Assembly: GCA_024401355.1 (NCBI GenBank)
Contig: JAKSLF010000005.1
Span: 48,435 to 112,434 of the forward strand
Direction of reading: 5' to 3'
DNA length: 64,000 nt
From: Bacteroidales bacterium
GTDB taxonomy: Bacteria > Bacteroidota > Bacteroidia > Bacteroidales > Marinilabiliaceae
Below are positions 29,807 through 53,322 of the stretch, piece after piece (the stretch's first letter is position 1; each line of letters opens with the position of its first letter). The translations under genes were made by a program, and so were the position numbers. The notes beneath the pieces were generated by a model. The model saw only the letters and a program-made list of their open reading frames with translations, did no database searches and was not told where the DNA came from.

Positions 29807-29838
29807 TTTGGGGATTGCGTATTTATTGAATATTTTTG
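29807..29838 (+). promoter_or_regulatory. Promoter of the 22-gene chemosensory operon, perfect consensus
   Basis: TTTG at 29807-29810, a 20-nt spacer and TATTTTTG at 29831-29838 match the Bacteroidetes promoter exactly. The leader to the first ATG (29938) is about 90 nt and contains a small GCGCC/GGCG hairpin near 29857-29868. I found no second consensus promoter inside the operon. Confidence 0.75.
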
Positions 29839-29937
29839 GAGTTAATTAGCAGAAGGAGCGCCTTGGCGACAGCGAAGAGTGACTGATGCTAAGTGAAAAA
29901 ACATAGTATTATAAACGAAAAAACGAAATTGCAGCAT

Positions 29938-30447
29938 ATGAAAAGATTGTTATTAATGATAGCACTATTGTGCTTGCCAATGTTGGTGGGAGCACAGGTA
30001 ACAAAGGCCAAGGCTATGCTTACTTTGAACTTCATCCGTTATATTGGTTGGACAGATGAGGCACGTCAGGGTGATTTTGTTATAGGGGTTATAAAGGACA
30101 AGGATTTGGCGTCTCAGCTTCGTCAGCAGTCGGAAGGCAAGAAGTTTGGATTCCAGGATGTAGTAGTCAAGGAATACAAGAATGCTGAGGAGTTGGAGGA
30201 CTGTCAGGTTGTATATTGCTCAAGTTCGGTAAGTTTCAGCCGTGCATCGGGAACGATAATGGGCAAGGTTGGCAAGGGAACACTTTTGATAACAGAGCAA
30301 GAGGGTGCGACTAACAGTGGATCGATGATAAACTTTGTTGTCAGAGACGAGAAGCTTAAATTTGAGTTGTGCAAGAAGAATGCGTCATACGCAGGAATAC
30401 AGTTCAGTTCGAAGCTTGAACAGATGACAGCAGCGATCAATTTGTAA
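29938..30447 (+). CDS. YfiR-like (DUF4154) periplasmic protein
   Basis: The 169-aa protein has a signal peptide (MKRLLLMIALLCLPMLVGA/Q) and matches the YfiR family throughout: KAMLTLNFIRYIGW, FVIGVIKDKDL, VVYCSSS, then GSMINFVVRDEKLKFELC and ISSKL-like QFSSKL at the end. In Pseudomonas YfiR is a periplasmic inhibitor of the diguanylate cyclase YfiN. No YfiN-type protein is present here; instead the next gene, 21 nt on, is a chemoreceptor with a periplasmic domain, so I infer that it may modulate that receptor. ATG 29938 was chosen over GTG 29893 because it starts the signal peptide. Confidence 0.85.
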   Translation: MKRLLLMIALLCLPMLVGAQVTKAKAMLTLNFIRYIGWTDEARQGDFVIGVIKDKDLASQLRQQSEGKKFGFQDVVVKEYKNAEELEDCQVVYCSSSVSFSRASGTIMGKVGKGTLLITEQEGATNSGSMINFVVRDEKLKFELCKKNASYAGIQFSSKLEQMTAAINL

Positions 30448-30468
30448 TTAAGAGAAAAAACAAACAAT

Positions 30469-32241
30469 ATGGGAAACGTAAGCGACATCAAGAAGTCTGG
30501 CTTTATTCAGAGAATGGCTAGTGGTGACATGTCTATAGCCAGGAAATTGCTGACAGGCTTTGGAGTGATATGTGGTTTTATCCTGCTGAATGCGATATTG
30601 ACAGTAGGAATTCATATTTTCACCCGCTCGCAGCAGAGCACAGAGTCGGAGCAGTATATTCCGGTTAAGCAGGACTTGGACAAGATGCAGTCGTTGTTGA
30701 CTGAATCAAAGCGCTTGATTGTAAACTGGGTATATATCGAGCATCAGCCAGATTCACCTGATAAGGTGAGGTTGCGTGAGATAATCGACACTGAATTTTT
30801 TGCAGTGTATAACGAAGTGAAGGCAAAGACATCTTCATGGGATACTACTTTTGTCAGCACACTTGCAACAGTGGAGACGAATGTTCAGAACCTGTTTGGT
30901 CTTGAGAAGGTAGTCATGGAGAACCTTCCAACATTCGAGAGCTACGATGACGTGATGGCTTACATGGAGTCTGAGATGCTTGTACAGAGTGACGGTGATA
31001 TTGCCGTGGCAGAGGCAGAACTTACTCAGGAGATGAAGACGCTGATAGACAATTGTGACTTGAAGTGTAGCGACATTGCTTCGAGCATCAGCAACTGGTC
31101 AACAGTTCAGCTTGTCTTTGTGATAATATTCAGTTTGATAGTGATGTCGATGTCGGTCTTCGTTGGATATGTGTTATACAAGTCAATAGTAGTACCATTG
31201 AAACGTGGTGTAGCATTTGCTCAGGCTATTGGTGATGGTGACCTTACTGCAGAAGTCAATGTAGACAGCAACGATGAAATTGGTCAGTTGGCCAAGGCAT
31301 TGACAGAGATGGTGACCAACCTTCGTAAGATTGTAGTAAGTATCGAGCACAATGCGAATGCGCTTGTAGATTCAGGTGATGGTGTGAAGAGCAGTTCACT
31401 TAAATTGAACAAGGGAGCATCTGAGCAGGCTGCAAGTGCCGAGGAGGTATCGACAGCGATTGAGGAGATGGTTGCCAATATCGACCAGAACACGGAGAAT
31501 GCCCTTGCAACAGAGAAGATAACAGCATCAACAGTAGAGAATGTAACGAAGTCGAGCCAGTTCTCGGCAGAGGCTGCAGAGGCAATGAGCCAGATATCAC
31601 AGAAGATAACAATCATCAGCGACATTGCGTTCCAGACAAACATTCTTGCATTGAATGCTGCAGTAGAAGCGGTAAGAGCAGGCGAGCATGGTCGTGGATT
31701 TGCTGTTGTAGCAGCAGAGGTCAGAAAGTTGGCAGAGCGAAGCAAGCAGGCTGCAAACGAGATAGTAAGTCTTGTCGGTCAGGGTATGAAAGTGTCGCAG
31801 CTTGCAGGTGACAAGGCCAAGGCGCTTGTTCCAGAGATGGAGAAGACAACCGTCTTGATAAAAGAGATATCTGCTGCATCGGTAGAGCAGAAGACAGGAG
31901 CAGAGCAGATCAACATGGCAATGCAGAACTTGAATGTCATCACTCAGGAGAATGCTTCGGCAGCCGACGAGTTGACAAACAGTTCAGTACAGTTGAGCGA
32001 ACTTGCAACAAACTTGAAGGCGGCAGTAAGCTTCTTCAAGCTCGATGCGGCTGCAGTAGAAGCAGCAAAGACAAGCCAGAGCAGTCAGCAGCCTAAGGCA
32101 GCAGCGAAGGTGGAAGAAGTCGAGACAGATGAAAATATTGTAGAAGAAGAGTCGCAGGTTACTCACCGCAAGGGAGCGACAATAAACCTTGGCAGCATGA
32201 GTACCAAGGAATATGACATCGACAACTACGAGAAGTTCTAA
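30469..32241 (+). CDS. Methyl-accepting chemotaxis protein of the operon
   Basis: The 590-aa receptor has TM1 (about 27-50), an all-helical periplasmic domain of about 160 residues, TM2 (about 215-240), HAMP (about 241-293) and the cytoplasmic coiled-coil signalling domain. The tip reads [18 protein letters not shown]; the Val replaces an almost invariant Ala. A 50-residue acidic tail follows the coiled coil. It would control CheA through CheW, with methylation by CheR, CheB and CheD of the same operon. It is the only receptor in the operon and follows the YfiR-like gene, so sensing through that protein is a reasonable inference. Confidence 0.93.
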
Positions 32242-32258
32242 AAAAGGAGACTTAGACG

Positions 32259-32570
32259 ATGAGCAACCCATATTCGATAGTGGCAGCAGACAAGCAGGGC
32301 ACGATGGAAGTCAAGTTCAGTGGCAACCTTATAATCAATCATATAGAGAAGATATATGAGGAGATGCAAGAACTAATTACTCCGGAGCAGCCAGTGAGCT
32401 TCATTATAGATAATCCTGAGAACCTTGATATCACATTCATCCAGATGGTGATAGCGGTAAAGAGGATGTGGAAGGAGAAGGGTAGTGAGTTTCATGTCAA
32501 GTCGGAGCTCAAAGACGACTTAAAGCAGTTGATGGCGAAGGCAGGTCTAGAGCGAGAATTAAACTATTAA
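32259..32570 (+). CDS. STAS-like domain protein
   Basis: The 103-aa protein has the size and alternating strand/helix pattern of a STAS (anti-sigma-antagonist-like) domain: a beta start (GTMEVKFSGNLIINHI), a central strand and helix at FIIDNPENLDITFIQMVIAV, and a last strand before DDLKQLMAKAG. In SpoIIAA-like proteins the phosphoserine lies at the start of that helix; here the spot is Asp-Ile-Thr, so Thr is the only candidate site. It could be a phosphoswitch partner of the SpoIIE-type phosphatase and SiaB-like kinase later in the operon, or a receptor-coupled adaptor. Assignment is by pattern, not strong motif. Confidence 0.6.
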   Translation: MSNPYSIVAADKQGTMEVKFSGNLIINHIEKIYEEMQELITPEQPVSFIIDNPENLDITFIQMVIAVKRMWKEKGSEFHVKSELKDDLKQLMAKAGLERELNY

Positions 32571-32625
32571 AAGATCAGGCGCAAGCTCGCCGTAGAAATA
32601 AGTATAAAATAAAAGTAAAAGAAAT

Positions 32626-32991
32626 ATGGCAAAGACAGTTCTTATTGTAGACGATTCGGAGAGTATCCGTGAGGTCGTAAACTTCACCCTTCAGAATGAG
32701 GGCTATGAGGTGTTGGTAGGTGTTGATGGCGAAGACGCCCTCAAGTTCCTTGACGGCCGTACAATCGACATTGTCATAACGGACCTCCACATGCCAAACC
32801 TTGATGGCCTTGGCCTCATCCGTAAGATTCGTGAGATGGATGCGTACAAGCATATTCCAATTCTCTTCTTGACAACAGAGTCACAGACAGAGAAGAAGAT
32901 GGAGGCGAAGGAAGCAGGTGCAACAGGATGGATTATCAAGCCATTCGTGCCAGCAAAGCTTCTTAGTGCAATCGCAAAGGTCGTACGATAA
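32626..32991 (+). CDS. cheY: CheY-like single-domain response regulator
   Basis: The 121-aa protein is a bare receiver domain with acidic pair Asp9/Asp10, phosphoacceptor Asp53 (VITDLHMP), a conserved Thr near residue 83 (LFLTTES) and the Lys in IKPF near 105. It should be phosphorylated by CheA of this operon. With no flagellar motor genes here its target is unknown. It lies 55 nt behind the STAS gene and 52 nt before cheA. Confidence 0.95.
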   Translation: MAKTVLIVDDSESIREVVNFTLQNEGYEVLVGVDGEDALKFLDGRTIDIVITDLHMPNLDGLGLIRKIREMDAYKHIPILFLTTESQTEKKMEAKEAGATGWIIKPFVPAKLLSAIAKVVR

Positions 32992-33043
32992 ATATTCGAT
33001 TATTTCGAGAATAGAGTAAACAGAGTTACAAGTTAAACACGCT

Positions 33044-35188
33044 ATGGATCAGTTCCAACAGAAATTCGTTGAGGAAGCGCTTGACAATGTCGAGAAGCTT
33101 GAAGAGAATCTCTTCGAGCTGGAGAGCAATATGGAGAATTATGACCCTGAGCTTATCCAGAGCATCTTCCGCAGCATGCACACTATTAAAGGTAGTGGTA
33201 TGATGTTTGGATTTGATGATTTGAGCAGGTTTACTCATAACTTTGAAACGATTTATGATCTTGTCAGAAATGACAAGTTAAAAGTGACGAAAGATATAGT
33301 TGATCTTTCGTTTGAGTCACTCGACTATATCAGGAAGCTGCTTGACATTGGTGAGGGTAAACTTACTGATCCCGATGATATTGCGCAGCTTAATGATTTT
33401 ATCGGCCGTATTACGAAGCACTTTCCTGAGGGCACAACGCTGACAAAGGGAAGAGCTGAACGTGAAGCGGAGGAAAAGGCCAAGAAGGAGGCAGAAGCAG
33501 CCAAGGCTGGTCCGAAGAACTACCTTGTGACAATCGAACCTATGGAGTCGTTGTTGGAGAATGGTACAAATCCTCTGTATACGGTAGATGACCTTACAGG
33601 TCTAGGCGAGTGGAAGACAGTGGCATTCACGGACAAAGTTGAGTCATTCAACCAGTTCAAGCCACTAGCGATGCGAATCAACTGGCAGGTATTGCTTCAT
33701 ACTGAGCAAGATGCTGTCAACGACATTCAGGACAACTTCATATTTATCGAAGATGAATGTAAAGTTGATATAGCAGAACTTCCATCAGGAGACTATATTG
33801 TTGCTGGTGGTGAAGTCTTGGAAGCATTGCTAAAAACGGCTGCGGAAAGTGGCAAGTATTTGACTCCGGCAGATTTTGAGCAGTTCAAGCAGGCGGCACC
33901 AGAGCAGGAACCTGCAAAAGAAGAGGCTAAGGCCGAGCAACCTGTTCAGGCTGCAGCTCAGAAGAGTGAAAAGAAAGAGGCTGGTCCGAAGAAGGAAGAA
34001 GCCAAGATAGCCACAATGCGTGTAGCATCGTCAAAGATTGACGAGCTTGTCAATGCTGTTAGTGAGATGGTGACAATGCAGGCTCAGCTCAACCTTATGG
34101 CTGAGAAGCAGGGAATACCGGCGTTGTCGGCCATAGCAGAGCAAATGGAGAAGACTACACGAGCATTGCGTGAGAATGCCTTTTCGCTGAGTTTGATACC
34201 TCTTGGCGGTGAACTTGTAAGATTCCAGAGGCTAGTCAGAGACTTGTCGAACAACCTTCATAAGCAGCTTGAGTTTATAGTAGAAGGTGGTGAGATAGAA
34301 CTTGACAAGAACATCATAGAGCATTTGACTGACCCTCTGATGCATATGATTCGTAACTCGGGTGACCATGGCATTGAATTGCCAGAAGAGCGAATAGCGA
34401 AAGGCAAGGACCCGAAGGGTACGATTAGGCTTAAGGCTTTCTATTCAGGCTCGTCTGTAATAATTCAGCTTTCGGATGATGGTAAGGGAATGGACCCTGA
34501 CAAGATATTCAAGAAAGCTGTTGAAAAGGGTTTGGTAGATCCAAATGCAAAACTTGCCAAGAAAGAGATATTAAACCTCATATTTGCTAGTGGTTTCTCG
34601 ACAGCAGAGAAAGTCAGCGACGTGTCGGGCCGAGGTGTCGGCATGGACGTTGTAAAGAGCAAGATAGCCGAGATTAGAGGTGAAGTCTCAATAGACTCGG
34701 AGATAGATAAGGGAACAACGTTCACGCTTGATTTGCCTTTGACATTGTCGATAATCGACGGTTTGTTGACAAAGGTGAATGGTGAGCAGTTTATATTCCC
34801 GTTGTCGAATATAGAAAGGATACTGTCACCAAAAGAAGTACAGTTTAACCATAGTGGTGTGGGTAATGTATTTACTTATGGAGGTGAGCAGATAGGATAT
34901 ATAGAACTGAACTCGATGTTCTATTCGATGGACACATTGATGGACACGAGCAAGATAATAATGGTACGCTCGGGTGAAAAGCACTTTGGCATAGTAGTAG
35001 ACCAGATAATAGGTGAGTATCAGATAGTGGTCAAGCCTCTTGGACGATTCATGAGGAAAGTAGACATGATATCTGGTGCATCAGTGATGGGTGATGGTTC
35101 GTTGTCGCTTGTCGTAGATACTACAAGAATGGTAAACTACTACATACAGCAGCGCTATCGTAAAGATGTAAAGGAGAAGGAGGCATAG
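33044..35188 (+). CDS. cheA: Chemotaxis histidine kinase CheA
   Basis: The 714-aa kinase has the standard layout: Hpt domain with His46 (MHTIKGSG), a P2-like domain (about 155-285), a Lys/Glu/Ala-rich linker, dimerisation helices (about 330-390), ATPase domain (N box MIRNSGDHGIELPEER, G1 DDGKGMD, G2 GRGVGMDVVKSK) and a C-terminal CheW-like domain. The catalytic motifs are intact. It would autophosphorylate at His46 under receptor control and pass phosphate to CheY and CheB. cheW follows after 2 nt. Confidence 0.96.
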   Translation: MDQFQQKFVEEALDNVEKLEENLFELESNMENYDPELIQSIFRSMHTIKGSGMMFGFDDLSRFTHNFETIYDLVRNDKLKVTKDIVDLSFESLDYIRKLLDIGEGKLTDPDDIAQLNDFIGRITKHFPEGTTLTKGRAEREAEEKAKKEAEAAKAGPKNYLVTIEPMESLLENGTNPLYTVDDLTGLGEWKTVAFTDKVESFNQFKPLAMRINWQVLLHTEQDAVNDIQDNFIFIEDECKVDIAELPSGDYIVAGGEVLEALLKTAAESGKYLTPADFEQFKQAAPEQEPAKEEAKAEQPVQAAAQKSEKKEAGPKKEEAKIATMRVASSKIDELVNAVSEMVTMQAQLNLMAEKQGIPALSAIAEQMEKTTRALRENAFSLSLIPLGGELVRFQRLVRDLSNNLHKQLEFIVEGGEIELDKNIIEHLTDPLMHMIRNSGDHGIELPEERIAKGKDPKGTIRLKAFYSGSSVIIQLSDDGKGMDPDKIFKKAVEKGLVDPNAKLAKKEILNLIFASGFSTAEKVSDVSGRGVGMDVVKSKIAEIRGEVSIDSEIDKGTTFTLDLPLTLSIIDGLLTKVNGEQFIFPLSNIERILSPKEVQFNHSGVGNVFTYGGEQIGYIELNSMFYSMDTLMDTSKIIMVRSGEKHFGIVVDQIIGEYQIVVKPLGRFMRKVDMISGASVMGDGSLSLVVDTTRMVNYYIQQRYRKDVKEKEA

Positions 35189-35190
35189 CT

Positions 35191-35652
35191 ATGGAAGTAG
35201 AAGAAGGAGTATCATTATCGTCGGTTACATCGTTCAAGGTGGGCGGTGAATACTTTGGTTTTGAGACAGTCAGAATACGTCATATATTGGAGATGTCAGA
35301 GCCTACGAAAGTACCTTTGGCAAAAGAATATGTCATGGGAATCATAAACAATCATGGAAACATGATTCCGGTGATTGACTTTAGGGCAATGCTTGGTCTG
35401 CCATCGGATGATGACCTGCCAGAGACTTCGATAGTGGTTGTTTCGGTAGACGGAACAGCAGAAAGTTATCTTGGTTTCAAGGTTGACGAAGTAGATGAAG
35501 TGTTTGACTATACTGAATCGCAGTACCAGGCAGATGTAGTAGTGGAAGTAAACCGTCTTGTGCAGAGGTCGTTGCAAGCGACATTGCATGTTGGCGACAA
35601 ATTCATATATATGATCAACCTTGATGAGTTGGCAAAAACAGTGGAGGAGTAA
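35191..35652 (+). CDS. cheW: CheW coupling protein 1
   Basis: The 153-aa protein is a single CheW domain (FKVGGEYFGFETVRIRHILE, then YVMGIINNHGNMIPVIDFRAMLGLP), which links receptor tips to CheA. It sits 2 nt behind cheA and 2 nt before a second cheW. The two copies are clearly divergent from each other, so they may serve different receptors, for example the one in this operon and the orphan at 8285. Confidence 0.94.
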   Translation: MEVEEGVSLSSVTSFKVGGEYFGFETVRIRHILEMSEPTKVPLAKEYVMGIINNHGNMIPVIDFRAMLGLPSDDDLPETSIVVVSVDGTAESYLGFKVDEVDEVFDYTESQYQADVVVEVNRLVQRSLQATLHVGDKFIYMINLDELAKTVEE

Positions 35653-35654: not shown

Positions 35655-36122
35655 ATGGATGAGATAAAGAACACATACCTTACGTTCACTGTAGGATCTA
35701 GCAATTTCGGAATACATGTAGAGCATGTAGTCGAGATAATAGAGTATGAGGAGCCAAAAACGCAGTCTTCTCAGTTGCCATTCATGAAGGGGTTGATAGA
35801 CCATCGAGGTGGCATAGTGCCATTGATAGATGCAGGTTTGAAATTTGGCATGGAGCCAGTAGACATAAACGATCAGGCATGTTGCATAGTGATGTCAGTC
35901 AAGGGTGCCGACCAGGTATTTGACATTGCGCTGGCAGTGGATGATGTGACAGAAGTGGTTGAAGTGGATGATGACAAGAAACAGTATATCGAAACGAACT
36001 ACAAGCCGGGTTATGTACAGTTTGCTGCGAAAGTTGATGATAACTATATAATGTTCATTGATGTAAACAAAGTGTTTAACGACACGGAAGTAATATCGTT
36101 GATGAAGATAATGGGGAAATAG
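35655..36122 (+). CDS. cheW: CheW coupling protein 2
   Basis: A second CheW domain protein of 155 aa (FTVGSSNFGIHVEHVVEIIE, MKGLIDHRGGIVPLIDAGLKFG). It carries a slightly longer acidic middle (VVEVDDDKKQ). Tight spacing to both neighbours shows cotranscription. Confidence 0.93.
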   Translation: MDEIKNTYLTFTVGSSNFGIHVEHVVEIIEYEEPKTQSSQLPFMKGLIDHRGGIVPLIDAGLKFGMEPVDINDQACCIVMSVKGADQVFDIALAVDDVTEVVEVDDDKKQYIETNYKPGYVQFAAKVDDNYIMFIDVNKVFNDTEVISLMKIMGK

Positions 36123-36140: not shown

Positions 36141-37001
36141 ATGGCAGAGACAGAGAGAAGTTCGGATTTGGAATGCTTCAAGGCAGAGTTGTCTCAGAGC
36201 GACTTCAAGGCGTTCAGTGACTACATATACTCTGAGTTTGGCATCAAGATGCCGGACATAAAAAGAGTGATGTTGCAGGGGCGACTGTTGAAGAGGGTGA
36301 GGGAATTGAAGATGTCGTCGTATGCTGAATACAAGAACTACTTTTTCAGCGAGGAGGGACAGCGTAATGAGTTGTACAACTTTCTGAGTGTAGTGACGAC
36401 GAACAAGACGGACTTTTTCCGTGAGTCGGTGCATTTTGACTTTCTCTCGCAGGAGGTTTTGCCTGGATTCATGGCTGAAGGAAGGACAAACATAAAGGTG
36501 TGGAGTGCCGCATGCTCGAGTGGCGAGGAACCATACACCATAAGCATAGTGCTCAATGAGTTCAAGGAGCGGAACCCAATGTTCAACTTCTCGATTCTAG
36601 GCACGGACATTTCGAGCAACGTTCTTGATAAAGCTGTAAAGGGGGTATATCCTGAAAAGACGGTTGAAGTGATACCTCTGCATCTCAAGAAAAAGTATTT
36701 CTTGCGAAGCAAGGACCGAGTCAATCCGACAGTCAGAGTGACGCCGCAGTTGCAGCAAAATATTTCTCTGAAATATCTAAACCTTATGGATACGGTTTAC
36801 GATATAACAGATAAATATGACGTAATATTCTGCCGAAACGTGTTGATATATTTTGACAGGGAGACGCAGGAGAAAGTGGTGACAAAATTGTGCAGGCATC
36901 TGGCACCTGGTGGATACCTGATGATTGGTCACTCGGAGTCAATAGCGAATATGGACTTACCGCTAAAAAATATTAAGCCCACAATGTTTAAAAGAATATA
37001 A
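36141..37001 (+). CDS. cheR: Chemoreceptor methyltransferase CheR
   Basis: The 286-aa enzyme methylates receptor glutamates with SAM. The N-terminal helical CheR_N domain covers about 15-85. The SAM motif WSAACSSGEEPYT lies near residue 120, LGTDIS near 155 and the CRNVLIYFD motif near 235. All catalytic signatures are present, in contrast to the two related genes at 41587 and 42402. No beta-subdomain docking partner peptide is found on the receptor tails. Confidence 0.95.
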   Translation: MAETERSSDLECFKAELSQSDFKAFSDYIYSEFGIKMPDIKRVMLQGRLLKRVRELKMSSYAEYKNYFFSEEGQRNELYNFLSVVTTNKTDFFRESVHFDFLSQEVLPGFMAEGRTNIKVWSAACSSGEEPYTISIVLNEFKERNPMFNFSILGTDISSNVLDKAVKGVYPEKTVEVIPLHLKKKYFLRSKDRVNPTVRVTPQLQQNISLKYLNLMDTVYDITDKYDVIFCRNVLIYFDRETQEKVVTKLCRHLAPGGYLMIGHSESIANMDLPLKNIKPTMFKRI

Positions 37002-37935: not shown

Positions 37936-38409
37936 ATGGAATATTTACAGCATTTCTTATATCCTTCGTCCTTTTTTGCCAGCAGGGAACCTTATGTAGT
38001 AAAGACCGTGCTGGGTTCTTGTGTCGCAGTATGTCTGTGGGACAAGCGTCTGCATTTTGGTGGAATAAATCACTACATGTTGCCAACATGGAATGGCAAT
38101 GACTTGGCATCGCCTAAATATGGAAATATAGCGATTGACAAGTTGATAGAGAAGATGCGTTGTATGGGAAGCCGCGTTGAAGACCTTGAGGCGAAGGTTT
38201 TTGGTGGTGGCGAACTTCTGGACGTGGGAGGTGACAAGCCTTCGACACAGATAGGAGAACGAAATATACAAGTGGCATGTATGCTATTGGACTCTTACAA
38301 GATACCAGTGATAGCGAAGAGTCTGGGTGGCAAACGAGGCCGAAAGATACTATACTTCACCGATACTGGTGAAGTTCGACATAAATTCCTTGAGAAGCGA
38401 GAAGTATAA
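37936..38409 (+). CDS. cheD: Chemoreceptor glutamine deamidase CheD
   Basis: The 157-aa protein deamidates receptor glutamines to glutamates. The catalytic Cys lies in TVLGSCVAVCLWD and the His in GGINHYMLP, both in the expected order; the FGGGELLDVG loop follows. It lies 12 nt behind the kinase-like gene and 45 nt before cheB, completing an adaptation set (CheR, CheB, CheD). Confidence 0.94.
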   Translation: MEYLQHFLYPSSFFASREPYVVKTVLGSCVAVCLWDKRLHFGGINHYMLPTWNGNDLASPKYGNIAIDKLIEKMRCMGSRVEDLEAKVFGGGELLDVGGDKPSTQIGERNIQVACMLLDSYKIPVIAKSLGGKRGRKILYFTDTGEVRHKFLEKREV

Positions 38410-38454
38410 CGCAGTGTAAAACTTCTTGTGAGGGATAAAAAGAATATTACTGCA

Positions 38455-44713: not shown

Positions 44714-47368
44714 ATGAAAGACAAAAAAGATAAATTAGATATCAAATACCTGTCGCCGGCAGGATTCAGTGAAGTGCAGTGGTATGCTGCGCTTATATCT
44801 GTTTTGGCGATGTTGCTAATAGGTTGGACCTCAATAATTAGTTTGTTGGGTCTGAACGTCACGTTGAGCAACATTGCATATATGCACAGATATATCTTCG
44901 TTTGGATATTTGATATGACAGTTGTTGCATTGTTGATGTTGTGTCTATATCTGGCAAATTTCAGGAGAATAAAGTTAAGTACGTTAGCTTCAAATATAGA
45001 ATCGTTGCAGAGTCAGATAGACAGTTCGATTGTCATGGCTGGCAAGATTGGTGCGGGGCAGTCGATAGAGGGCATGATAGGATCGTCGGATTCGGACCTT
45101 CACAAGACACTCTTGAAGCTTGGTAAAAACCTGATGGAGACAAAAGAAAAAGAGAGTCAGTTTTCATGGGTTACACGAGGCAAGGAAAAAGTATCAGATA
45201 TTCTCCGTTCTCACAATAAGATAGATGAACTTGCGGTTGAGACATTGATAGGCATTACTCAGTATTATGAAGCTGTTCAGGGTGCATTCTTCATCCTTGA
45301 GGGTGATGAATTGAGAACTTTGACACAGTATGCCTATAATCGCAGGAGATATGAGACAAAGACCATCAAGGTAGGAACAGGACTTATTGGTGCTGCAGCA
45401 TACGAGCGTCAGATAATATACAGGACAGATGTTCCTGAGGACTACTTTACCATAACCTCTGGTATGATGGGCGAGCAGAAGCCTCGATCGATAATAATCA
45501 TACCTCTTATGCAGGAGGACGTAGTTCAGGGAGTCATAGAATTGGCATTCTTCAAAAAGCGTCTGCCTCAGCATTACCTTTCGTTGGCAGAAGAACTTGG
45601 CAAAGTCATAGGTGCCACGATATACAACCTGAAAATCAATGAGAGAACAGCACAGCTCTTGCGTGAATCACAGGAGATGACCGCTACATTGAAGAAGAAC
45701 GAAGAGCAGTTGCAGCAGAATGCGCTTGAGATGCTTGAGGCGAAGGAGAATGTCGAGATGTCGAACCGTGAACTTGCTGTCAAGATTCAGGAAGTAGAGA
45801 ATGGTCAGAAGCGTCTGCAGGCATTGCTTACGAACGCCTCTGAGTTTATCTCGATATATAATGAAGACCGCGAAGTGACATTTGAGAGTCCATCAATCCG
45901 TCGAATACTTGGTTATGAGCCAAATGACACGGTGCATGGCATGGATGAGGACATGATGACACCTAAAGGCTTTAGAAGTGTTACAGGAATGTTTGACTAT
46001 CTTCTTGACACGCCTGGTGGTGAAATGACGATACAGTATACCTATCTGAAAAAGAATGGTGACAAGATATTCCTTGAAACTCAGGGAAAGAACCTTTTGC
46101 ATGACCCAGCGATACGTGGTCTTATCTTCAACACAAGAGATATAACCGAAAGAATACGTGCGGAGCGTGAGGAGCGAATGAAGAGCCGAATGCAGTCGCT
46201 TTCGGAGAACTCTCCAGATATGATTATCCGTACGAGCACAAATGGAAAGATAGTATACGTAAACCCTGCGGCATCGAAGTTCTTGCAGCGTGAAGTAGTC
46301 GACCTGATGAGCATGAAGATAAACGAGCTTGATCCGTCGATGAGTATAGTAGACTTCATCAGCAGTGCCTTGAAACTGCTTAAGAAGACACATACAAAGA
46401 CAGAGTCGGAACTTCAGATAGAGCTTGAGGGTGAAGAGCGAATAGTAGAAGTAAGAGCAATTCCTGAATTTGGTGAATCGGGAGATGAGCTTGAGTCGGT
46501 ACTCTTCCAGGCGCATGATGTCACTCAGATGAAGAAGCAGGAAGAGGAAATCAAGGAGAAGAACAAGAGTATCCAGGATAGTATCAACTATGCATTGCGA
46601 ATTCAGAAAGCATTGTTGCCAGAGGTTCAGGATTACCAGAAGTACTTCCCTAAGACATTCATGATGTACTTCCCTAAGAATACGGTCAGTGGTGACTTCC
46701 CATGGTTCTATCATTTTGACAATGTATACTATATAGCAGCAGTAGACTGTACGGGCCATGGTGTACCTGGTGCGTTGTTGTCATTGATAGGAACATTGCT
46801 TCTGAACAACATTGTGGAGACGGGTCAGGACTTGACAGCGGCGCAATTGCTTGACAAATTGCATGCGGCAGTAAGAAGAGCATTGAAGCAGGATGATCCG
46901 GACAGACCGGACAACGGTCGAGATGGTATGGACCTTGGTCTTTGCCGCATTGACACAGAGAAACATGAGTTGCAATTTGCCGGAGCTCACCGTCCTCTTT
47001 ACTATATGCGAGGCAGTGAATTTACGGAATATAAAGGATCGAGAAAGGGCATAGGTGGTATACCATTGCCAGGTCGTCCGGAACCAGATTTTGAAAATAA
47101 TGTCATAGAATACCAACCTGGAGACAGATTTTACGTATTCTCAGATGGACTTCCAGACCAGCTGGACGGACAAAAAAAGAAAAAATATCAAACAAAACGC
47201 TTCAAGGAATTGCTTGATCGAACAGCCGAAAAAGAGATCAAGGAGATCTACGAAGAGGTTCATAATGACTTTATTAACGTGTGGATGAGGAATGATCCGG
47301 CGGAGACGGAAGCAGACATCAGAACACGTCAAGTTGATGATGTTTTGTTGATAGGTGTTGAATTATAA
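44714..47368 (+). CDS. Membrane SpoIIE-type protein phosphatase with GAF and PAS sensors (SiaA-like role)
   Basis: The 884-aa protein has two membrane helices (about 22-45 and 60-85), a GAF domain (about 165-310), a coiled coil, two PAS domains (about 370-490 and 495-610) and a SpoIIE/PP2C phosphatase (about 640-884). Metal-ligand motifs are VSGDFPWF, AVDCTGHGVPGALLS, FSDGLPDQ and VDDVLLIG. PP2C enzymes of this kind dephosphorylate Ser/Thr of partner-switch proteins; in Pseudomonas SiaA acts on SiaC. The next two genes are SiaB-like and SiaC-like, which makes the role persuasive. The membrane and sensor parts differ from SiaA. Confidence 0.88.
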   Translation: MKDKKDKLDIKYLSPAGFSEVQWYAALISVLAMLLIGWTSIISLLGLNVTLSNIAYMHRYIFVWIFDMTVVALLMLCLYLANFRRIKLSTLASNIESLQSQIDSSIVMAGKIGAGQSIEGMIGSSDSDLHKTLLKLGKNLMETKEKESQFSWVTRGKEKVSDILRSHNKIDELAVETLIGITQYYEAVQGAFFILEGDELRTLTQYAYNRRRYETKTIKVGTGLIGAAAYERQIIYRTDVPEDYFTITSGMMGEQKPRSIIIIPLMQEDVVQGVIELAFFKKRLPQHYLSLAEELGKVIGATIYNLKINERTAQLLRESQEMTATLKKNEEQLQQNALEMLEAKENVEMSNRELAVKIQEVENGQKRLQALLTNASEFISIYNEDREVTFESPSIRRILGYEPNDTVHGMDEDMMTPKGFRSVTGMFDYLLDTPGGEMTIQYTYLKKNGDKIFLETQGKNLLHDPAIRGLIFNTRDITERIRAEREERMKSRMQSLSENSPDMIIRTSTNGKIVYVNPAASKFLQREVVDLMSMKINELDPSMSIVDFISSALKLLKKTHTKTESELQIELEGEERIVEVRAIPEFGESGDELESVLFQAHDVTQMKKQEEEIKEKNKSIQDSINYALRIQKALLPEVQDYQKYFPKTFMMYFPKNTVSGDFPWFYHFDNVYYIAAVDCTGHGVPGALLSLIGTLLLNNIVETGQDLTAAQLLDKLHAAVRRALKQDDPDRPDNGRDGMDLGLCRIDTEKHELQFAGAHRPLYYMRGSEFTEYKGSRKGIGGIPLPGRPEPDFENNVIEYQPGDRFYVFSDGLPDQLDGQKKKKYQTKRFKELLDRTAEKEIKEIYEEVHNDFINVWMRNDPAETEADIRTRQVDDVLLIGVEL

Positions 47369-47410: not shown

Positions 47411-47983
47411 ATGGGAAGAATAGCAGCGAATCAGGACTTTTTGGAGTTTGCTTACCAATTGTATCATACAATGCAGGCAAACGAGATTAATCTTGTGTAT
47501 GAGGGTGTAGTTACTCAGGAGATTACACGTACGTTCACAGCCCTTACAGAAAAGAACATGGTAAAGGCTGAGGAATCGAATCAGGTACAGCGTAAGGTTT
47601 TCAACGTAATGGTTGAGTGCCTTCAGAATATCAGCAAGCATGCAGATGCGATGTCAGATGATGAGAATGAGGAGCGTCGTGGTATAGTTTTGGTAAGCCA
47701 TGGCGAGGAGTCATACAATGTCATCACAGGAAACGTTGTAAAGCGTTCGAAGCGTGAGGGCCTTGAAAAGAGTCTTCAGAAGATTAACAGTCTTGACAAG
47801 GAAGGACTTTCGGCGCTATACAAGCAGCAGATAAAAGAGGGTCACATCTCAGAAAAGGGTGGTGCGGGCCTTGGATTTATCGATATAGCGAAGAAGTCTG
47901 GCAATAAAATTGATTACCAGTTTAAGGACTTGACAGATGACTTGTGCTTCTTCATCCTTATAACCACTATTTCAAGAAACTAA
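47411..47983 (+). CDS. SiaB-family protein kinase (DUF6272)
   Basis: The 190-aa protein belongs to the SiaB-type HATPase-fold kinases. The N box is VECLQNISKHAD near residue 72 and the ATP-lid glycine motif is GGAGLGFIDIAKKSG near 155. The family phosphorylates SiaC-type proteins on threonine. It sits 42 nt behind the phosphatase and 15 nt before the SiaC-like gene, the same order as in the Pseudomonas sia operon. Confidence 0.85.
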   Translation: MGRIAANQDFLEFAYQLYHTMQANEINLVYEGVVTQEITRTFTALTEKNMVKAEESNQVQRKVFNVMVECLQNISKHADAMSDDENEERRGIVLVSHGEESYNVITGNVVKRSKREGLEKSLQKINSLDKEGLSALYKQQIKEGHISEKGGAGLGFIDIAKKSGNKIDYQFKDLTDDLCFFILITTISRN

Positions 47984-47998: not shown

Positions 47999-48394
47999 AT
48001 GGAAGTAATAAATATTAAAGGTACAGACGACACACCAAGTGTGACTATGGACAAGGACAATGGTGTGTTCTTGATTCAGGGCAGATCATTGCCAGAGGAT
48101 GTTACATTGTTCTATCAGCCTATACTTGACTGGATAACAGAGTATGGTAACCAGACAAACGACCATACAGACATGACCTTTAAGTTGGAGTATTTCAACA
48201 CAGCATCTTCAAAGGTACTTCTTGATGTTCTTCTGAAGTTCGAAGAGATAAAGAACAACGGAAGTGATGTCACAGTAAAGTGGTGTTATCGTGAAGACGA
48301 GGAAGACATCAAAGAGGCTGGTGAGGAGTATGAGGACATAGTAGAGGTTCCATTCGAGTATTGTGAATGTGACGAAGACTGGAACATCAAATAA
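47999..48394 (+). CDS. SiaC-family regulatory phosphoprotein (DUF1987)
   Basis: The 131-aa protein shows the DUF1987 signature: TPSVTMD near the start, GRSLPEDVTLFYQPILDW in the middle and YFNTASSK, where Thr68 coincides with the phosphorylated Thr68 of Pseudomonas SiaC. An acidic C-terminal tail follows (residues about 98-125). In Pseudomonas unphosphorylated SiaC binds and activates the cyclase SiaD. No cyclase is encoded here, so another target, for example the ABC transporter downstream, is inferred. A perfect 9-bp hairpin lies between this gene and the transporter gene. Confidence 0.88.
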   Translation: MEVINIKGTDDTPSVTMDKDNGVFLIQGRSLPEDVTLFYQPILDWITEYGNQTNDHTDMTFKLEYFNTASSKVLLDVLLKFEEIKNNGSDVTVKWCYREDEEDIKEAGEEYEDIVEVPFEYCECDEDWNIK

Positions 48395-48453: not shown

Positions 48454-48468
48454 CCTAAAACTTGTAAT

Positions 48469-51400
48469 ATGAGCGAAGCTATTCTTGAAGCACTGATGAA
48501 GCTGTTTGGCCTTATTGCCAAGCAGGATGCCGGTGTAGGCGATGACGGGAGAAACTATGTAAGAACATTTCTCCAGTCACAAATCGGAGAGCAGGAAGTT
48601 GAGTTGTATCTTCAGAAGTTTGATGAGAACGCTGAAGTTAGGCTTGACGAGACGGGTCACGTTATAACTCCTGAAAATGCTGGTGACGTTAAGGCTTCGG
48701 AATCGGTTAAAATTATAGGTACTTGCCGTAAGATAAGCAAGGAGCTTGAGAAGGATGACATATTGCCTGATGGTACGAAAGTGCCCAAAGATCCTGAAGT
48801 TGTCAAGAAGCAGAAGGCCGTAATCTTCGTTCGTATATATGAGATGATACGTGTGTCGATATCCAAATCTTCCGACATAAACGGAAGAATGGAAGTCATC
48901 GACGGCGTAGTTTTGGCCTTCAAGCTCGACAAGGAAGAGGTAAAGGCAATTAAAGCGTTCAGCATGGAGAGCGAGGCTGAACAGATGGACTACAAGGGAA
49001 TACTTGTAGCCGATGAGCGCTCAGACATAAATTTTGAACATGCATTGCACATACAGACAGGCAAGCTGAAGGGAGCGATATTCTTCCTTTATATGGCTAG
49101 TGTTGATCTGTACTTTGTGCGTTATAGTGGCGGCGAGTCGTATGTAAACGGTAACTTGCTTGCCCAGGATTGTGTTTCTCCATTCCCGACTCGAAGCATC
49201 ATAAAAGCGACATCAGCGACAGTATGTTTCTTTGATGTTGAGTCAAAATTCAATCCAGACAGGAAGTTCGACAAGATCTCGTATGAGGTCAACAACATGT
49301 GGTTCAAATTCAAGAACGGCAACATTGGCTTGAGAAATATCAACATGGCAGAACGTGAAGGTCAGTTGATAGGTATCATGGGTGCGAGTGGTGCTGGTAA
49401 GACCACATTGCTTAATGTACTCTGTGGCAATGAGAAGCCTTCAGAGGGCGAGGTGTTGATAAATGGTCGAAATCTTCATACGGAACCGGAAAAGCTGGAA
49501 GGTGTCATAGGTCTTATTCCTCAGGATGACTTGTTGATAGAGGAATTGACAGTATATGAGAACCTATATTATAGTGCTAAACTTTGTTTTAGACATAAGA
49601 GTGAAGAGGAGATAAAAACTCTTGTAGACAGGACGCTTGACAATCTTGGTCTTTATGAAAGAAAAGACCTTGTAGTAGGTTCTCCTCTTAACAAATCAAT
49701 CAGTGGTGGTCAGCGTAAGCGTTTGAACATCGCCTTGGAGCTCATCAGAGAGCCAGCAGTTTTGTTTGTGGACGAGCCTACATCAGGTTTGTCTTCAGGT
49801 GACTCGGAAAATGTAGTTAATCTGTTGCGTGAGCTTGCTGTGAAGAATGGCAAACTTGTATTTGTCGTAATCCATCAGCCATCATCGGATATCTATAAGA
49901 TGTTTGACAAGATGTTCATCCTTGATACGGGTGGATATCCTGTATATTATGGTGATCCGGTAGGTGCAATCACCTATACGAAGAAGCAGATTGGTCAGGC
50001 AAGTGCAGACCAGGGAGCATGTTCGGAGTGTGGTAACGTCAATACGGAACTTGTATTCAACGTACTTGAAGCAAAGGTAATAGACGAATGGGGTGGTACA
50101 TCAAACAAGCGTAAGGTGCAGCCTCAGTCGTGGAACAACAAGTATAACGAGAATATAGTACTGCCAAAGGTGGAGACTGTGAATGAGGAGCCACCTCGTT
50201 CGTTGGACTTGCCTTCATGGTTTGGTCAGTTCTGCATATATACCCGAAGAGACTTCTGGGCAAAGATAAGCAACACTCAGTATATACTTATGAACGTGCT
50301 TGAGGCGCCGTTCCTAGGTTTTGTGCTTGCATATCTTGTGCGTTATATTGTAGATCCTGATTCTGATGTATACATCTTCAGAGAGAACGAGAATATACCT
50401 ATATATATATTCATGGGTATAATCGTCTCTATCTTCTTTGGTCTTATTGTGAGTGCCGAGGAGATATTCAAGGATGCCAAGATTATGAAGAGGGAGCGGT
50501 TCCTTAACCTGAGCCGATCGGCCTATTTGATGTCTAAGATATTGATATTGATGGGCTTGTCAGCGATACAGATGCTTCTTTTCATCTTAGTGGGCAATGC
50601 GGTGATAGGATTTGAGGGAATGAATCTGGAGTTCTTCCTGATGTTGTTCTCTGTGTCGGTATCATCGAATATCCTTGGTCTGATAATTTCATCAGCATTC
50701 AACACCATTGTAACCATCTACATTATGATACCATTGTTGATGATTCCTCAGATGGTATTGGGTGGAGCGATGTTTACATTTGACAAGCTGAATAAGACTA
50801 TAGCATCAGTAGACAAAGTTCCGTTTGTTGCAGAATTCATACCTGCACGATATGCATACGAAGGTCTGATAGTATATCAGTTTAAGCATAATAAATTCCA
50901 TAGTGTATTGTTTGAGACAGCCATGCAGGAAAGTTGGGCTGACTTTAGACAGACATATATTATGCCTGAATTGACAACGACCCTTGACAGAGTATTGGCA
51001 AAATATAAAGCGGGCAAAACAGACGACCCTGTATATATTGGCGACCTTGCACTTCTGCACAATGAGCTTGGCAAGGAGAAGAATCGTCATCCACAGATAG
51101 ACTTCAATGGATTGGACAACCTTACTCCTGATAAGTTCAATGGCAATGTATACAACCAGACACAGGAGTATATTGAGCAGTTGACGATGATATATGCCGA
51201 GATGTTCCGTCAGGCGAATACCAAGCGAGACAAAACGACAGAGTATCTTCTTTCAACTCAGCCAGAAAAGTATAATGCATTAAAAGATGCCTACTTTAAT
51301 GAAACAGTTTCGGATGTAGTCCGTAAAACTTTTGATAAGAACAAGATGTTGCGTGATGGCGATAGATTGATCCAGATACTTGATCCGATCTATCAGATGC

Positions 51401-51873
51401 CAGAACCAGAGCCAGGCGACTGGATTAAGTGCAGAATGCAGTTCTTTGCTCCAGCCAAGTATTTCCTTGGTGTATATTGGGACACACTATGGTTTAACAT
51501 GGCATGTATATGGTTGATCACAATATTCTTGTATATAGCCTTGTATTATGACTGGGCGCATAGGGGCTTTGAATTCCTTGGAGAGCATGTGGCGACTCCG
51601 CTTGCAGCCAAGATGGATGAAATAAGCAAGAAGCGTGCAGCGAGAAAGAAGGCTAAGAGAGAAGCTGCTGCTCAGGCTGCTGCTGAAAAAGCTGAGGCTG
51701 AAAAGAAAGCAATAGAAGAAGCAGAGAAGAAGGCCAAGGAAGAGGCCAAGAAGAAAGCTGAAGCAGAGAAGAAAGCCAAGGAGGAAGCAGAGAAAGCTGC
51801 CGCTGAGGCTCAGGCTCAGAATGCAGAAGCTTCGTCTGGCACAGAAAATGTTGATAAAAAAGAAAATAACTAA
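48469..51873 (+). CDS. TerB-like/ABC ATPase/permease fusion (ABCG type)
   Basis: The 1134-aa protein has an N-terminal helical TerB-like region (about 1-170), an unassigned domain (about 175-265), an ABC ATPase (Walker A GASGAGKTT at residue 305, Q loop LIPQDD, signature SISGGQRKRL near 410, Walker B LFVDEPTSGLSS near 435, switch HQPSSD), a linker with paired cysteines (GACSECGN), ABC2-type membrane helices (about 600-790), a large helical loop, one more membrane helix (about 1005-1030) and a Lys/Glu/Ala-rich coiled tail. This is the ABCG order, ATPase before permease. ATG 48469 is chosen over TTG 48448, which lies in the hairpin. Direction and substrate are unknown; it is the likely effector of the operon. 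Confidence 0.87.
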   Translation: MSEAILEALMKLFGLIAKQDAGVGDDGRNYVRTFLQSQIGEQEVELYLQKFDENAEVRLDETGHVITPENAGDVKASESVKIIGTCRKISKELEKDDILPDGTKVPKDPEVVKKQKAVIFVRIYEMIRVSISKSSDINGRMEVIDGVVLAFKLDKEEVKAIKAFSMESEAEQMDYKGILVADERSDINFEHALHIQTGKLKGAIFFLYMASVDLYFVRYSGGESYVNGNLLAQDCVSPFPTRSIIKATSATVCFFDVESKFNPDRKFDKISYEVNNMWFKFKNGNIGLRNINMAEREGQLIGIMGASGAGKTTLLNVLCGNEKPSEGEVLINGRNLHTEPEKLEGVIGLIPQDDLLIEELTVYENLYYSAKLCFRHKSEEEIKTLVDRTLDNLGLYERKDLVVGSPLNKSISGGQRKRLNIALELIREPAVLFVDEPTSGLSSGDSENVVNLLRELAVKNGKLVFVVIHQPSSDIYKMFDKMFILDTGGYPVYYGDPVGAITYTKKQIGQASADQGACSECGNVNTELVFNVLEAKVIDEWGGTSNKRKVQPQSWNNKYNENIVLPKVETVNEEPPRSLDLPSWFGQFCIYTRRDFWAKISNTQYILMNVLEAPFLGFVLAYLVRYIVDPDSDVYIFRENENIPIYIFMGIIVSIFFGLIVSAEEIFKDAKIMKRERFLNLSRSAYLMSKILILMGLSAIQMLLFILVGNAVIGFEGMNLEFFLMLFSVSVSSNILGLIISSAFNTIVTIYIMIPLLMIPQMVLGGAMFTFDKLNKTIASVDKVPFVAEFIPARYAYEGLIVYQFKHNKFHSVLFETAMQESWADFRQTYIMPELTTTLDRVLAKYKAGKTDDPVYIGDLALLHNELGKEKNRHPQIDFNGLDNLTPDKFNGNVYNQTQEYIEQLTMIYAEMFRQANTKRDKTTEYLLSTQPEKYNALKDAYFNETVSDVVRKTFDKNKMLRDGDRLIQILDPIYQMPEPEPGDWIKCRMQFFAPAKYFLGVYWDTLWFNMACIWLITIFLYIALYYDWAHRGFEFLGEHVATPLAAKMDEISKKRAARKKAKREAAAQAAAEKAEAEKKAIEEAEKKAKEEAKKKAEAEKKAKEEAEKAAAEAQAQNAEASSGTENVDKKENN

Positions 51874-51885
51874 AAGAATTATATT

Positions 51886-52800
51886 ATGAAAATTAACAAA
51901 CTCTCATTATTTGCTACTCTTATTGCAAGTGTGGCATTCATGACAAGTTGTGGTCTTGGCGGTGGTTCAAGAAACAATGATTTTGATATGTCGGCTGATA
52001 CACTTTCAGATGCTCCACTTCAGCTTTCTGAGAATGTAGTCAATGATATGATACAGAACATTTCTTCACCTGTAGAGATGGCAAACCAGATTAAGAACTC
52101 TGGTGCTGGTTTTTCTCAGCAGATGTTGAATGAGACTGATAATATCAAGAACTATAACACAAGCTTCAAGCGTGCGTTGAACCTTGGTGTATATAGTGCA
52201 GACCTTGGCTATATCAATACATTCAACAAGAACACAGTAGTAGTGTCGTTCCTTGTAGCAGTAAAGGACTTGGCAGACGGATTGAATGTAGGTCAGTTCC
52301 TTGACTTCCAGACATTGAAGCGTTTGGCAACAAACAGCACAAACTTGGATTCTTTGAAGCAGCTTTCAGTATCAAGCTTCAACCAGATGGACAAGTATCT
52401 TCGTGAGCAGAAGCGTTCGAACGTAAGTACAGCAATTGTTGCTGGTGCATGGCTTGAGGGTATTTACATCACAAGCCAGGTAATAGAGCAGACAGGAGAC
52501 AAGGAGTTGATTAATCGTCTTGGTGAGCAGAAGGACATAGTAAACATCCTTCTTATCATCCTTAACAACTATAGCAAGACAGACAAGAACTTCCAGGATC
52601 TTGTAGCAAAGATTGATGATATCAAGAAGATCTATGATGGTGTGCGCATCACAACAGAACTTGGTGAGCCTATTACAAAGGAAGTTGATGGTATCTTGAC
52701 AATTGACCAGAATGAGATTACTCATGTAGAGATTTCAGATGATCAGGTGAAGGAGATCATTGAGAAAGTAAAGCAGGCACGTCAGTTTGTTGTAGGTTAA
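51886..52800 (+). CDS. Lipoprotein of unknown function
   Basis: The 304-aa protein starts with a lipoprotein signal (MKINKLSLFATLIASVAFMTSC, lipobox MTSC) and a flexible GGGSRNN stretch. The rest is mostly alpha-helical with repeated amphipathic helices and no catalytic motif I can see. It lies 12 nt behind the ABC transporter gene, so it may be a substrate-handling or outer-membrane partner of that transporter. I do not recognise the family. Confidence 0.75.
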   Translation: MKINKLSLFATLIASVAFMTSCGLGGGSRNNDFDMSADTLSDAPLQLSENVVNDMIQNISSPVEMANQIKNSGAGFSQQMLNETDNIKNYNTSFKRALNLGVYSADLGYINTFNKNTVVVSFLVAVKDLADGLNVGQFLDFQTLKRLATNSTNLDSLKQLSVSSFNQMDKYLREQKRSNVSTAIVAGAWLEGIYITSQVIEQTGDKELINRLGEQKDIVNILLIILNNYSKTDKNFQDLVAKIDDIKKIYDGVRITTELGEPITKEVDGILTIDQNEITHVEISDDQVKEIIEKVKQARQFVVG

Positions 52801-52830
52801 TCTCGAATAACAGTTTAAAGTTTGCAAGTC

Positions 52831-53268
52831 ATGAAAAGATTATTTTTAATATTGGTTGCAGTTATGTCATTTGCATGTGCAGCATCAGCACAATGTGGTG
52901 ACGAACTGATGAAGACAGCTCTTGCTGCGATGGGAGACAAGCAGTACATTAAGGACTTTGACATTAAGATTCCAGCAGGATCGGCAGATGGTGTCAAGTT
53001 TTCAGTAGTGCTTAACAGCCGTACAAAATATCAGATAAATGTTGCTAATGGCGCAACTAACTCGGAGAATGTAACAATAGAGATTAGCGATGCAGCAGGC
53101 AAGATAATCGGTATCAATGCAGCTGGTGGTAAGGTGTACAACTTGTTCCAGTTCAACTGTTCAAAGACAGGAGCATACAAATTGAAAGTTCGTACATCAA
53201 ATGGTTCAGAGGCATGTGCTCGTGCCGTACTTTCATTGGTACAGCAGTATGCTGAAGGTGAGCAGTAA
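52831..53268 (+). CDS. Small secreted protein of unknown function
   Basis: The 145-aa protein has a signal peptide (MKRLFLILVAVMSFACAASA/Q) and a compact beta-sandwich-like mature part with three cysteines (CGDEL, FNCSKTG, EACARA). The pattern YQINVANGATNSENVTIEIS and GAYKLKVRTSNGSEA resembles pre-peptidase C-terminal or similar binding beta domains, but I would not name it. ATG 52831 is preferred over TTG 52822. It is the last gene of the operon; a terminator follows 24 nt later. Confidence 0.75.
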   Translation: MKRLFLILVAVMSFACAASAQCGDELMKTALAAMGDKQYIKDFDIKIPAGSADGVKFSVVLNSRTKYQINVANGATNSENVTIEISDAAGKIIGINAAGGKVYNLFQFNCSKTGAYKLKVRTSNGSEACARAVLSLVQQYAEGEQ

Positions 53269-53292
53269 ATCGGACACCGAAATGTTAAATAT

Positions 53293-53322
53293 AGCCCGAG
53301 GCATTATGCTTCGGGCTTTTTG
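53293..53322 (+). terminator. Terminator of the chemosensory operon
   Basis: AGCCCGAGGC (53293-53302) pairs with GCTTCGGGCT (53308-53317) with one G-U pair, followed by TTTTTG. It closes the operon. Confidence 0.85.

Follow-up and report, generated by a model that had tools for sequence, protein, structure and literature searches.

The window analysed here, a stretch of 64,000 nucleotides (positions 48435-112434) of contig JAKSLF010000005.1 from a Bacteroidales bacterium of the family Marinilabiliaceae (source genome 2.92 Mb on 69 contigs, 85% complete), contains 22 plus-strand genes at positions 29893-53268 that join a full chemosensory core to a Sia-type phosphoswitch and an ABCG-like transporter. 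With the starts chosen among the open reading frames of the window, the intergenic gaps range from -4 to 74 bp, in agreement with the short gaps and overlaps described in a first-pass annotation of this DNA. Judged from this arrangement the 22 genes are a putative operon, which may be read as one transcript. The positions of all features are collected in Table 1.

Pfam domains confirm each part of the predicted chemosensory core: receptor, CheA, CheY, two CheW proteins, CheR, CheD and CheB. CheA has a histidine phosphotransfer (Hpt) domain with its histidine as well as dimerisation, ATPase and CheW domains, and together with the methyl-accepting chemoreceptor (MCP) and CheW it makes up a CheA pathway; it is also the sole PF02895 match of the genome. 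The predicted YfiR-like protein is borne out by PF13689. A match exists for the predicted STAS protein as well, although it stays below the cut-off, and a PDB search with this protein led nowhere. Four genes had not been named in the first-pass annotation: two additional CheR-like genes (41587 and 42402), a CheB gene without a receiver domain (43204) and a HisKA-like gene (37015).

The phosphoswitch proteins match the solved SiaA, SiaB and SiaC proteins of Pseudomonas aeruginosa (PDB 6k4e, 6kko and 6k4f), and the motif threonine of the SiaC-like protein, residue 68, is aligned with the Pseudomonas site. The SpoIIE phosphatase and the SiaB- and SiaC-like proteins are thus confirmed by Pfam or NCBIfam and by PDB matches; all three lie below the NCBIfam equivalog cut-offs, and SiaB passes the subfamily cut-off. 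GAF/PAS proteins are present as predicted, except that the match of the GAF gene at 43764 is below the cut-off. CheB2 keeps Ser12, His39 and Asp132, whose roles we presume to be those of other CheB methylesterases. The transporter is of the ABCG type: PF00005 precedes PF01061, and ABCG1 (7fdv) is among the PDB matches that span both domains. It had been described as a TerB/ABCG fusion; TerB is undetected in the window's own protein, though seven of eight aligned ABC sequences have it at E ≤ 1 (best 9.2e-9). The C-terminal tail of the transporter, about 100 residues long with many Lys, Ala and Glu (51580-51870), is not shared by seven aligned relatives. No convincing Pfam family was found for the lipoprotein, and the predicted secreted protein has only a marginal match to a tail of the type IX secretion system (T9SS).

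Table 1. Features of the cluster, with positions in the window and the matches on which each assignment rests.
Feature	Position	Strand	Evidence
Bacteroidetes-type promoter-like motif, TTTG-N20-TATTTTTG	29807-29838	+	motif scan
YfiR-like periplasmic protein	29938-30447 (reading frame from 29893; start 29938 likelier)	+	PF13689 (DUF4154) E 8.5e-29; NCBIfam YfiR-like below cut-off
MCP with HAMP domain	30469-32241	+	PF00015 E 1.1e-29
STAS-like protein	32259-32570	+	PF13466 E 2.5e-4, below cut-off (21.6 bits vs 29.2)
CheY, stand-alone receiver, Asp53	32626-32991	+	PF00072
CheA, Hpt His46	33044-35188	+	PF01627, PF02895, PF02518, PF01584 (Hpt, dimerisation, ATPase, CheW domains)
CheW (first)	35191-35652	+	PF01584
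CheW (second)	35655-36122	+	PF01584
CheR	36141-37001	+	PF01739 E 1.4e-59
HisKA-like pseudo-kinase	37015-37923	+	HATPase_c over Pfam cut-off, HisKA below it
CheD	37936-38409	+	PF03975
CheB, receiver and methylesterase	38428-39630	+	PF01339, PF00072
Membrane GAF-PAS-PAS protein, at junction of modules	39685-41568	+	Pfam domains
Second CheR-like protein (CheR2)	41587-42402	+	PF01739 E 2.6e-29; PDB CheR match
Third CheR-like protein (CheR3)	42402-43184	+	PF01739 E 3.4e-15; S-adenosylmethionine motif degenerate by eye in alignment
Second CheB (CheB2), methylesterase only	43204-43767	+	PF01339 E 6.1e-51
Membrane GAF protein	43764-44702	+	PF13185 E 2.4e-5, below cut-off
SiaA-like membrane GAF-PAS-SpoIIE (PP2C) phosphatase	44714-47368	+	PF07228; PDB 6k4e E 4.4e-32
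SiaB-family kinase (DUF6272)	47411-47983	+	NF038262 171 bits, cut-off 85; PDB 6kko chain A E 7.1e-18
SiaC-like phosphoprotein, Thr68	47999-48394	+	PF09345 E 4.1e-39; aligned with P. aeruginosa SiaC
ABCG-like transporter (N-terminal region, ATPase, ABC2 membrane domain)	48469-51873	+	PF00005, PF01061
Lipoprotein paired with ABC gene	51886-52800	+	lipobox by eye; Cys22 invariant in 50 sequences
Small secreted protein	52822-53268	+	TIGR04183 23.2 bits at cut-off 23; Pfam equivalent below cut-off
Intrinsic terminator-like hairpin	53293-53317	+	11 pairs, 7 G-C, then T-rich tail

One perfect promoter and one terminator had been proposed. The terminator-like hairpin was indeed the best of its scan. 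The promoter-like motif, defined by what we take to be the Bacteroidetes-type consensus, is present ahead of the cluster and has 10 exact matches in the window (1.12 expected); it is not the only one, as the cluster itself contains two more exact same-strand matches (30334 and 43453). A sigma-70 promoter scan was uninformative, and Rfam and tRNA scans contributed nothing. The ribF gene adjoins the cluster upstream, and the genes 3' of it include one for a BspA-type leucine-rich-repeat protein (54751-56382).

Conservation and joining of two modules

We mapped the cluster in 23 other genomes of the family, three that came out of the search for CheA and 20 selected so that each genus had at least one, and accepted the GAF gene by position where its sequence match was weak. 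All 22 genes occur in the same order and on the same strand in 17 of the 23 genomes. Two genomes are one gene (YfiR) short, at a contig end in G251 and near a contig start in G277; in two the cluster is split after siaA, with 17 genes left (G265 and G287); and in two it is cut by contig ends and contiguous as far as visible (G278, 10 genes; G313, 8 genes). Counted by genus, at least 21 of the 22 genes are in order in 17 of 21 genera, the other four being the two splits and the two cut by contig ends. The near relative G305 has 20 of the 22 in order, with the STAS and CheY genes hidden by the picking of open reading frames. The merging of Che core, Sia-type phosphoswitch and ABC transporter genes seen in the first-pass annotation is therefore a real and conserved joining, and the synteny that it proposed to look for is present. 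A chance neighbourhood is rejected by the 17 genomes that keep all 22 genes in order.

The GAF-PAS gene at the junction is matched in 66 of 71 family genomes. Three of the remaining five (G309, G288 and G312) keep an ABC gene of the type found here, and the other two (G306 and G310, 84% and 91% complete) have only distant ABC paralogs (≤38%), which one missing stretch could explain; the five genomes are no proof of loss. In 16 of the 23 mapped genomes (for example G265, G029 and G247) an extra free-standing Hpt gene (106-132 amino acids) separates cheY from cheA, with the Pfam Hpt domain confirmed in all three tested; it had no match in the window, in three examined genomes of the window's genus, or in G251 and G297. 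Among the matches listed, the best-matching named relatives are sheep-rumen Bacteroidales (L191), Carboxylicivirga marina, Saccharicrinis, Breznakibacter, Anaerophaga and Marinilabiliaceae bacterium JC017. In JC017 (locus L198) cheB, GAF-PAS and the genes from cheR2 to that of the secreted protein follow one another. The joined gene block belongs to a single family, members of which come from rumen and marine samples.

The description as one 22-gene unit has to be corrected to two modules, which in other families lie at separate loci: the Che core (module I), and an exporter-switch module comprising CheR2, CheR3, CheB2, GAF, SiaABC, ABC transporter, lipoprotein and secreted protein (module II). 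None of 18 mapped CheA loci from other families has a CheR2-to-ABC block after the Che core, with a stretch that extends past cheB in 16 of them; no cheR is visible before the contig ends in G149 and G035. Single module II-like genes lie near some of the 18 loci: G055 has SiaB and SiaC there, G065 SiaC and a gene resembling that of the lipoprotein, G090 a SiaA-like and G132 a lipoprotein-like gene. Conversely, 20 ABC-centred loci from other families contain SiaB in every case, SiaA, the lipoprotein and the secreted protein in 19 each, SiaC in 18, CheB2 in 17 and CheR2 in 16. The ABC locus without a lipoprotein is that of G090, where the contig ends just upstream and 6 kb are present downstream; the CheR/CheB part of G035 runs on the opposite strand. 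Thirteen genomes are common to the two sets, and in single-contig genomes the modules are 1.6 Mb (G214) and 3.6 Mb, or 0.7 Mb if circular (G195), apart.

Among the best 80 named loci listed, module II spans Bacteroidales, Cytophagales (such as Fulvivirga, Persicobacter, Nafulsella and Flexithrix) and others, and its content varies: for example, just the ABC gene is seen at L201 and L258, and just the ABC and lipoprotein genes, among those recognised, at L269 and L270. Five hand-picked paralogous ABC loci (L278-L282) have siaB in all five, siaC and the lipoprotein gene in four each, and no siaA match. A rearranged version at L249:8827-17773 consists of YfiR, a SpoIIE protein, lipoprotein, secreted protein, ABC transporter and siaB-siaC; CheA was not seen in this locus.

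The modules were probably joined once, with later breaks, because the ABC genes of the fused operons form one clade (support 1.0) in a FastTree tree of 64 ABC proteins, in which the split members are nested. Repeated independent joining is rejected on the same ground. The breaks fall between siaA and siaB in G265, G287 and G304, and G299, where the contig ends before siaA, fits this position; G300 has retained siaB next to siaA, and siaB, siaC and ABC occur together on a different contig as well. In five of six broken cases (G265, G287, G304, G299 and G300) siaB, siaC and the ABC, lipoprotein and secreted-protein genes stay together. In G304, G300 and G299 (L317-L322) the relocated exporter genes are followed by a second lipoprotein gene, and in G300 also by a second gene for the secreted protein.

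Possible outputs of the chemosensory core and of the Sia switch

CheY is the most conserved protein: its median identity is 91% across 17 genomes from other genera of the family and 74% across 16 from other families, and the corresponding medians for CheA are 48% and 42%. These figures exclude the window's genus, G251 and G278. The high conservation suggests a conserved partner, and as a stand-alone receiver CheY must act through another protein. The first-pass annotation noted the lack of flagellar and pilus genes, proposed a non-motility pathway and called for a genome-wide check. Flagellar FlhA (PF00771), part of the flagellar export apparatus, is over the cut-off in none of 19 genomes, with sub-cut-off matches in two, and flagellar (Fla) taxis is rejected. 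The PilB/PilT-type ATPase (PF00437) is over the cut-off in none of six genomes of the window's genus (two sub-cut-off matches in the window's genome, 85% complete), by which type IV pilus (Tfp) taxis in this genus is rejected; PF00437 passes in three of the 19 genomes, one of them in the family (G270).

The noted lack of flagellar and pilus genes is supported at the level of these matches; non-motility, in the form in which it was claimed, is not established. The gliding lipoprotein GldJ, the sole gliding gene searched, has a match in all 19 genomes, over the cut-off in 12 and below it in the window's own. The single CheA match of the window's genome is accompanied by six MCP matches, five at separate places, and one family member (G265) has 32, although some matches may be fragments of a single gene; with one CheA and several receptors the system looks like a taxis network. 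A second chemoreceptor with MCP signal and HAMP domains, probably served by the same CheA, is encoded outside the cluster on the minus strand (8285-10054).

Gliding is known among Marinilabiliaceae, and the core might serve ordinary gliding taxis, with phosphorylated CheY (CheY-P) acting on the gliding and T9SS machinery, and module II setting the surface (slime, adhesin) that gliding needs. Non-motility would then be wrong altogether. The GldJ matches, the receptor numbers and the single-domain, highly conserved CheY are all consistent with such a role. However, GldJ is equally present in G018 and G081, which have neither CheA nor MCP matches, and so does not track the Che core and neither proves nor excludes gliding. 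Moreover, no gliding gene was recognised in the operon, and the literature searched yielded no test of gliding in the window's genus. We consider gliding taxis unlikely, though worth keeping in view.

Gene 37015 aligns with solved HisKA kinases over the HisKA and ATPase domains, and no membrane segment is predicted. The phospho-accepting histidine of HisKA histidine kinases is replaced by Asn57, with Glu58 and Asn61 kept. Asn occupies this site in 39 of 39 sequences, namely the window's own and 38 of 38 orthologs that matched with 150 bits or more, and other kinases encoded in the same stretches have His in all 13 cases that could be aligned (a 14th could not). Thr or Asn four residues after the histidine is needed for phosphatase activity in the HisKA proteins tested in an excerpted source (PMC3510030), and Asn61 has this position. 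CheX (PF13690) and CheC (PF04509) had no match in 19 of 19 genomes in which controls matched; CheZ was not searched for. In the simplest reading gene 37015 probably encodes a candidate dedicated CheY-P phosphatase, because the phospho-accepting histidine is Asn, the phosphatase Asn is kept, and CheC and CheX are absent from all 19 genomes.

The same protein could instead serve the STAS protein as a Ser/Thr kinase or scaffold, forming a second partner switch within the Che core. The N-box for ATP binding seems intact in the 39 sequences aligned, Thr59 of the STAS protein is conserved in 22 of 22 family sequences including that of the window, and GHKL anti-sigma kinases, which phosphorylate STAS proteins, provide a precedent. 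In other families, however, 11 sequences have Ser (5), Thr (2), Ala (2) or Gly (2) at the STAS site, while the pseudo-kinase remains Asn in all aligned. A phospho-STAS role thus cannot be general, and Asn61 is the residue expected of a HisKA phosphatase. We hold a STAS-directed kinase or scaffold to be quite improbable.

The Sia switch of Pseudomonas acts through Thr68 of SiaC, which is phosphorylated by SiaB and dephosphorylated by SiaA, and unphosphorylated SiaC alone binds and activates SiaD (excerpts of PMC8457831 and PMC7647112). The phosphatase, the kinase and Thr68 are all found here. The diguanylate cyclase SiaD is not: GGDEF domains had no match in eight of eight genomes searched, in which controls matched, and a YfiN cyclase under YfiR is missing for the same reason. 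An output in cyclic di-GMP (c-di-GMP) through SiaD or YfiN is rejected on this basis, and c-di-GMP is unlikely to be the output of the switch. We infer that gating of the exporter by SiaC is the best-supported output, because SiaC keeps Thr68 and adjoins the ABC gene; by analogy, SiaC may bind the transporter. In the excerpts of PMC8457831, SiaC-like (DUF1987) proteins were proposed to modulate adjacent proteins.

Proposed shared control of surface and export, and related systems

With middling confidence, we propose as the best explanation that two older systems, a chemosensory core and a phosphoswitch-gated exporter, came together as one operon in an ancestral member of the Marinilabiliaceae, which would place the CheY output and the exporter under shared control. 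The MCP and the neighbouring periplasmic YfiR-like protein would report on the envelope or surroundings to CheA, which would phosphorylate CheY and CheB, with CheR, CheB and CheD adapting the receptors and the kinase-dead HisKA-like protein removing phosphate from CheY. The GAF/PAS sensors, adjusted by CheR2 and CheB2, would set the phosphatase activity of SiaA, which in turn, with the kinase SiaB, would determine the phosphorylation of SiaC Thr68. Unphosphorylated SiaC would bind and switch the adjoining ABCG-like transporter in place of a diguanylate cyclase, and the lipoprotein and small secreted protein would work with the exporter on an envelope substrate. Surface behaviour (through CheY) and surface composition (through the exporter) would thereby be coordinated, and cell-surface sensing and export may be controlled together.

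How the modules are distributed bears on this proposal. Among 247 genomes of the order, 76 have a CheA match at E ≤ 1e-20, of which 66 are of the full-length type (10 weak ones dropped), and 102 have an ABC match at E ≤ 1e-60, of which 70 are of the module II type (cut at about 860 bits). Module II-type ABC genes occur in 53 of the 66 CheA genomes versus 17 of the 181 others, and are missing from 13 of the 66. The modules might share a promoter for dosage or by accident and signal separately; module II stands alone in many genomes, and splits at siaA/siaB recur. The gene order kept in 17 of 21 genera and the co-occurrence across the order make such co-transcription without crosstalk improbable.

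Several findings weigh against shared control. Gaps above 150 bp (up to 589 bp) occur in most examined family genomes outside the window's genus, in 16 of which they are partly filled by the extra Hpt gene; in these genomes one transcript is less certain for that reason. At least two lineages, namely the window's genus and the genera to which G265 and G287 belong, have since lost the join, and the ABC gene of G312 has none of its partners beside it. The co-occurrence count ignores phylogeny, and its ABC-type cut was made by hand. Module II does not need CheA, because 16 of the 70 genomes with module II-type ABC have no CheA match, among them G018 (99% complete), which has no MCP match either. 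Finally, the GldJ-like genes are compatible with an ordinary role in taxis.

More tentatively, and with some doubt, we speculate that a partner-switch-gated exporter exists in Bacteroidota, in which SiaB and SiaC act directly, through no second messenger, on an ABCG-like transporter that has a lipoprotein and a secreted partner of its own. One family would have put this exporter in a CheA operon, where chemoreceptors could steer export together with the CheY output, reset by the kinase-dead CheY-P phosphatase.

We recognised no paper on this operon in the open-access literature searched, which returned little on chemosensory pathways of Bacteroidota. The parts are of known kinds; what appears new within that literature is their combination, the pairing of SiaC with a transporter, and the pseudo-kinase. 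With c-di-GMP an unlikely output, the SiaC-type switch makes the proposal of adjacent-protein modulation (PMC8457831, in excerpt) testable, the joined operon is an argument for linking chemoreceptors to an exporter, and gene 37015 names a new candidate class of CheY-P phosphatase.

The Fla, Tfp and alternative cellular functions (ACF) classes of CheA pathways, as described in excerpts of PMC3447774, share MCP, CheA, CheW, CheY, CheR, CheB and CheD with this cluster. In contrast to them, FlhA is not found over the cut-off here, an HisKA-like pseudo-kinase is present without a CheC or CheX match, and a Sia switch and exporter are joined to the core. A multidomain response regulator, frequent in the ACF class but not strict (PMC3447774, in excerpt), is also lacking, as CheY is a receiver only and CheB is the only other receiver protein of the operon.

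Wsp, Dif and Frz likewise have a chemosensory core that serves a non-flagellar purpose. Their known gene content differs, and the receiver-GGDEF diguanylate cyclase of Wsp has no counterpart here. DivL-like pseudo-histidine kinases resemble gene 37015 as HisKA-type proteins without the phospho-accepting histidine (PDB 4q20 was matched); DivL, which we take to have a changed residue at this site, differs from gene 37015, which has Asn, no membrane segment and a place in a che operon. YfiBNR shares a YfiR-family periplasmic protein, which here adjoins an MCP and not a YfiN-type cyclase. SiaABCD of P. aeruginosa has the same PP2C phosphatase SiaA, kinase SiaB and STAS-like SiaC with Thr68. In the cluster described here, the gene beside SiaC encodes an ABC transporter in place of the GGDEF protein SiaD, SiaA carries GAF-PAS domains, and the set is joined to CheR and CheB and, in one family, to CheA.

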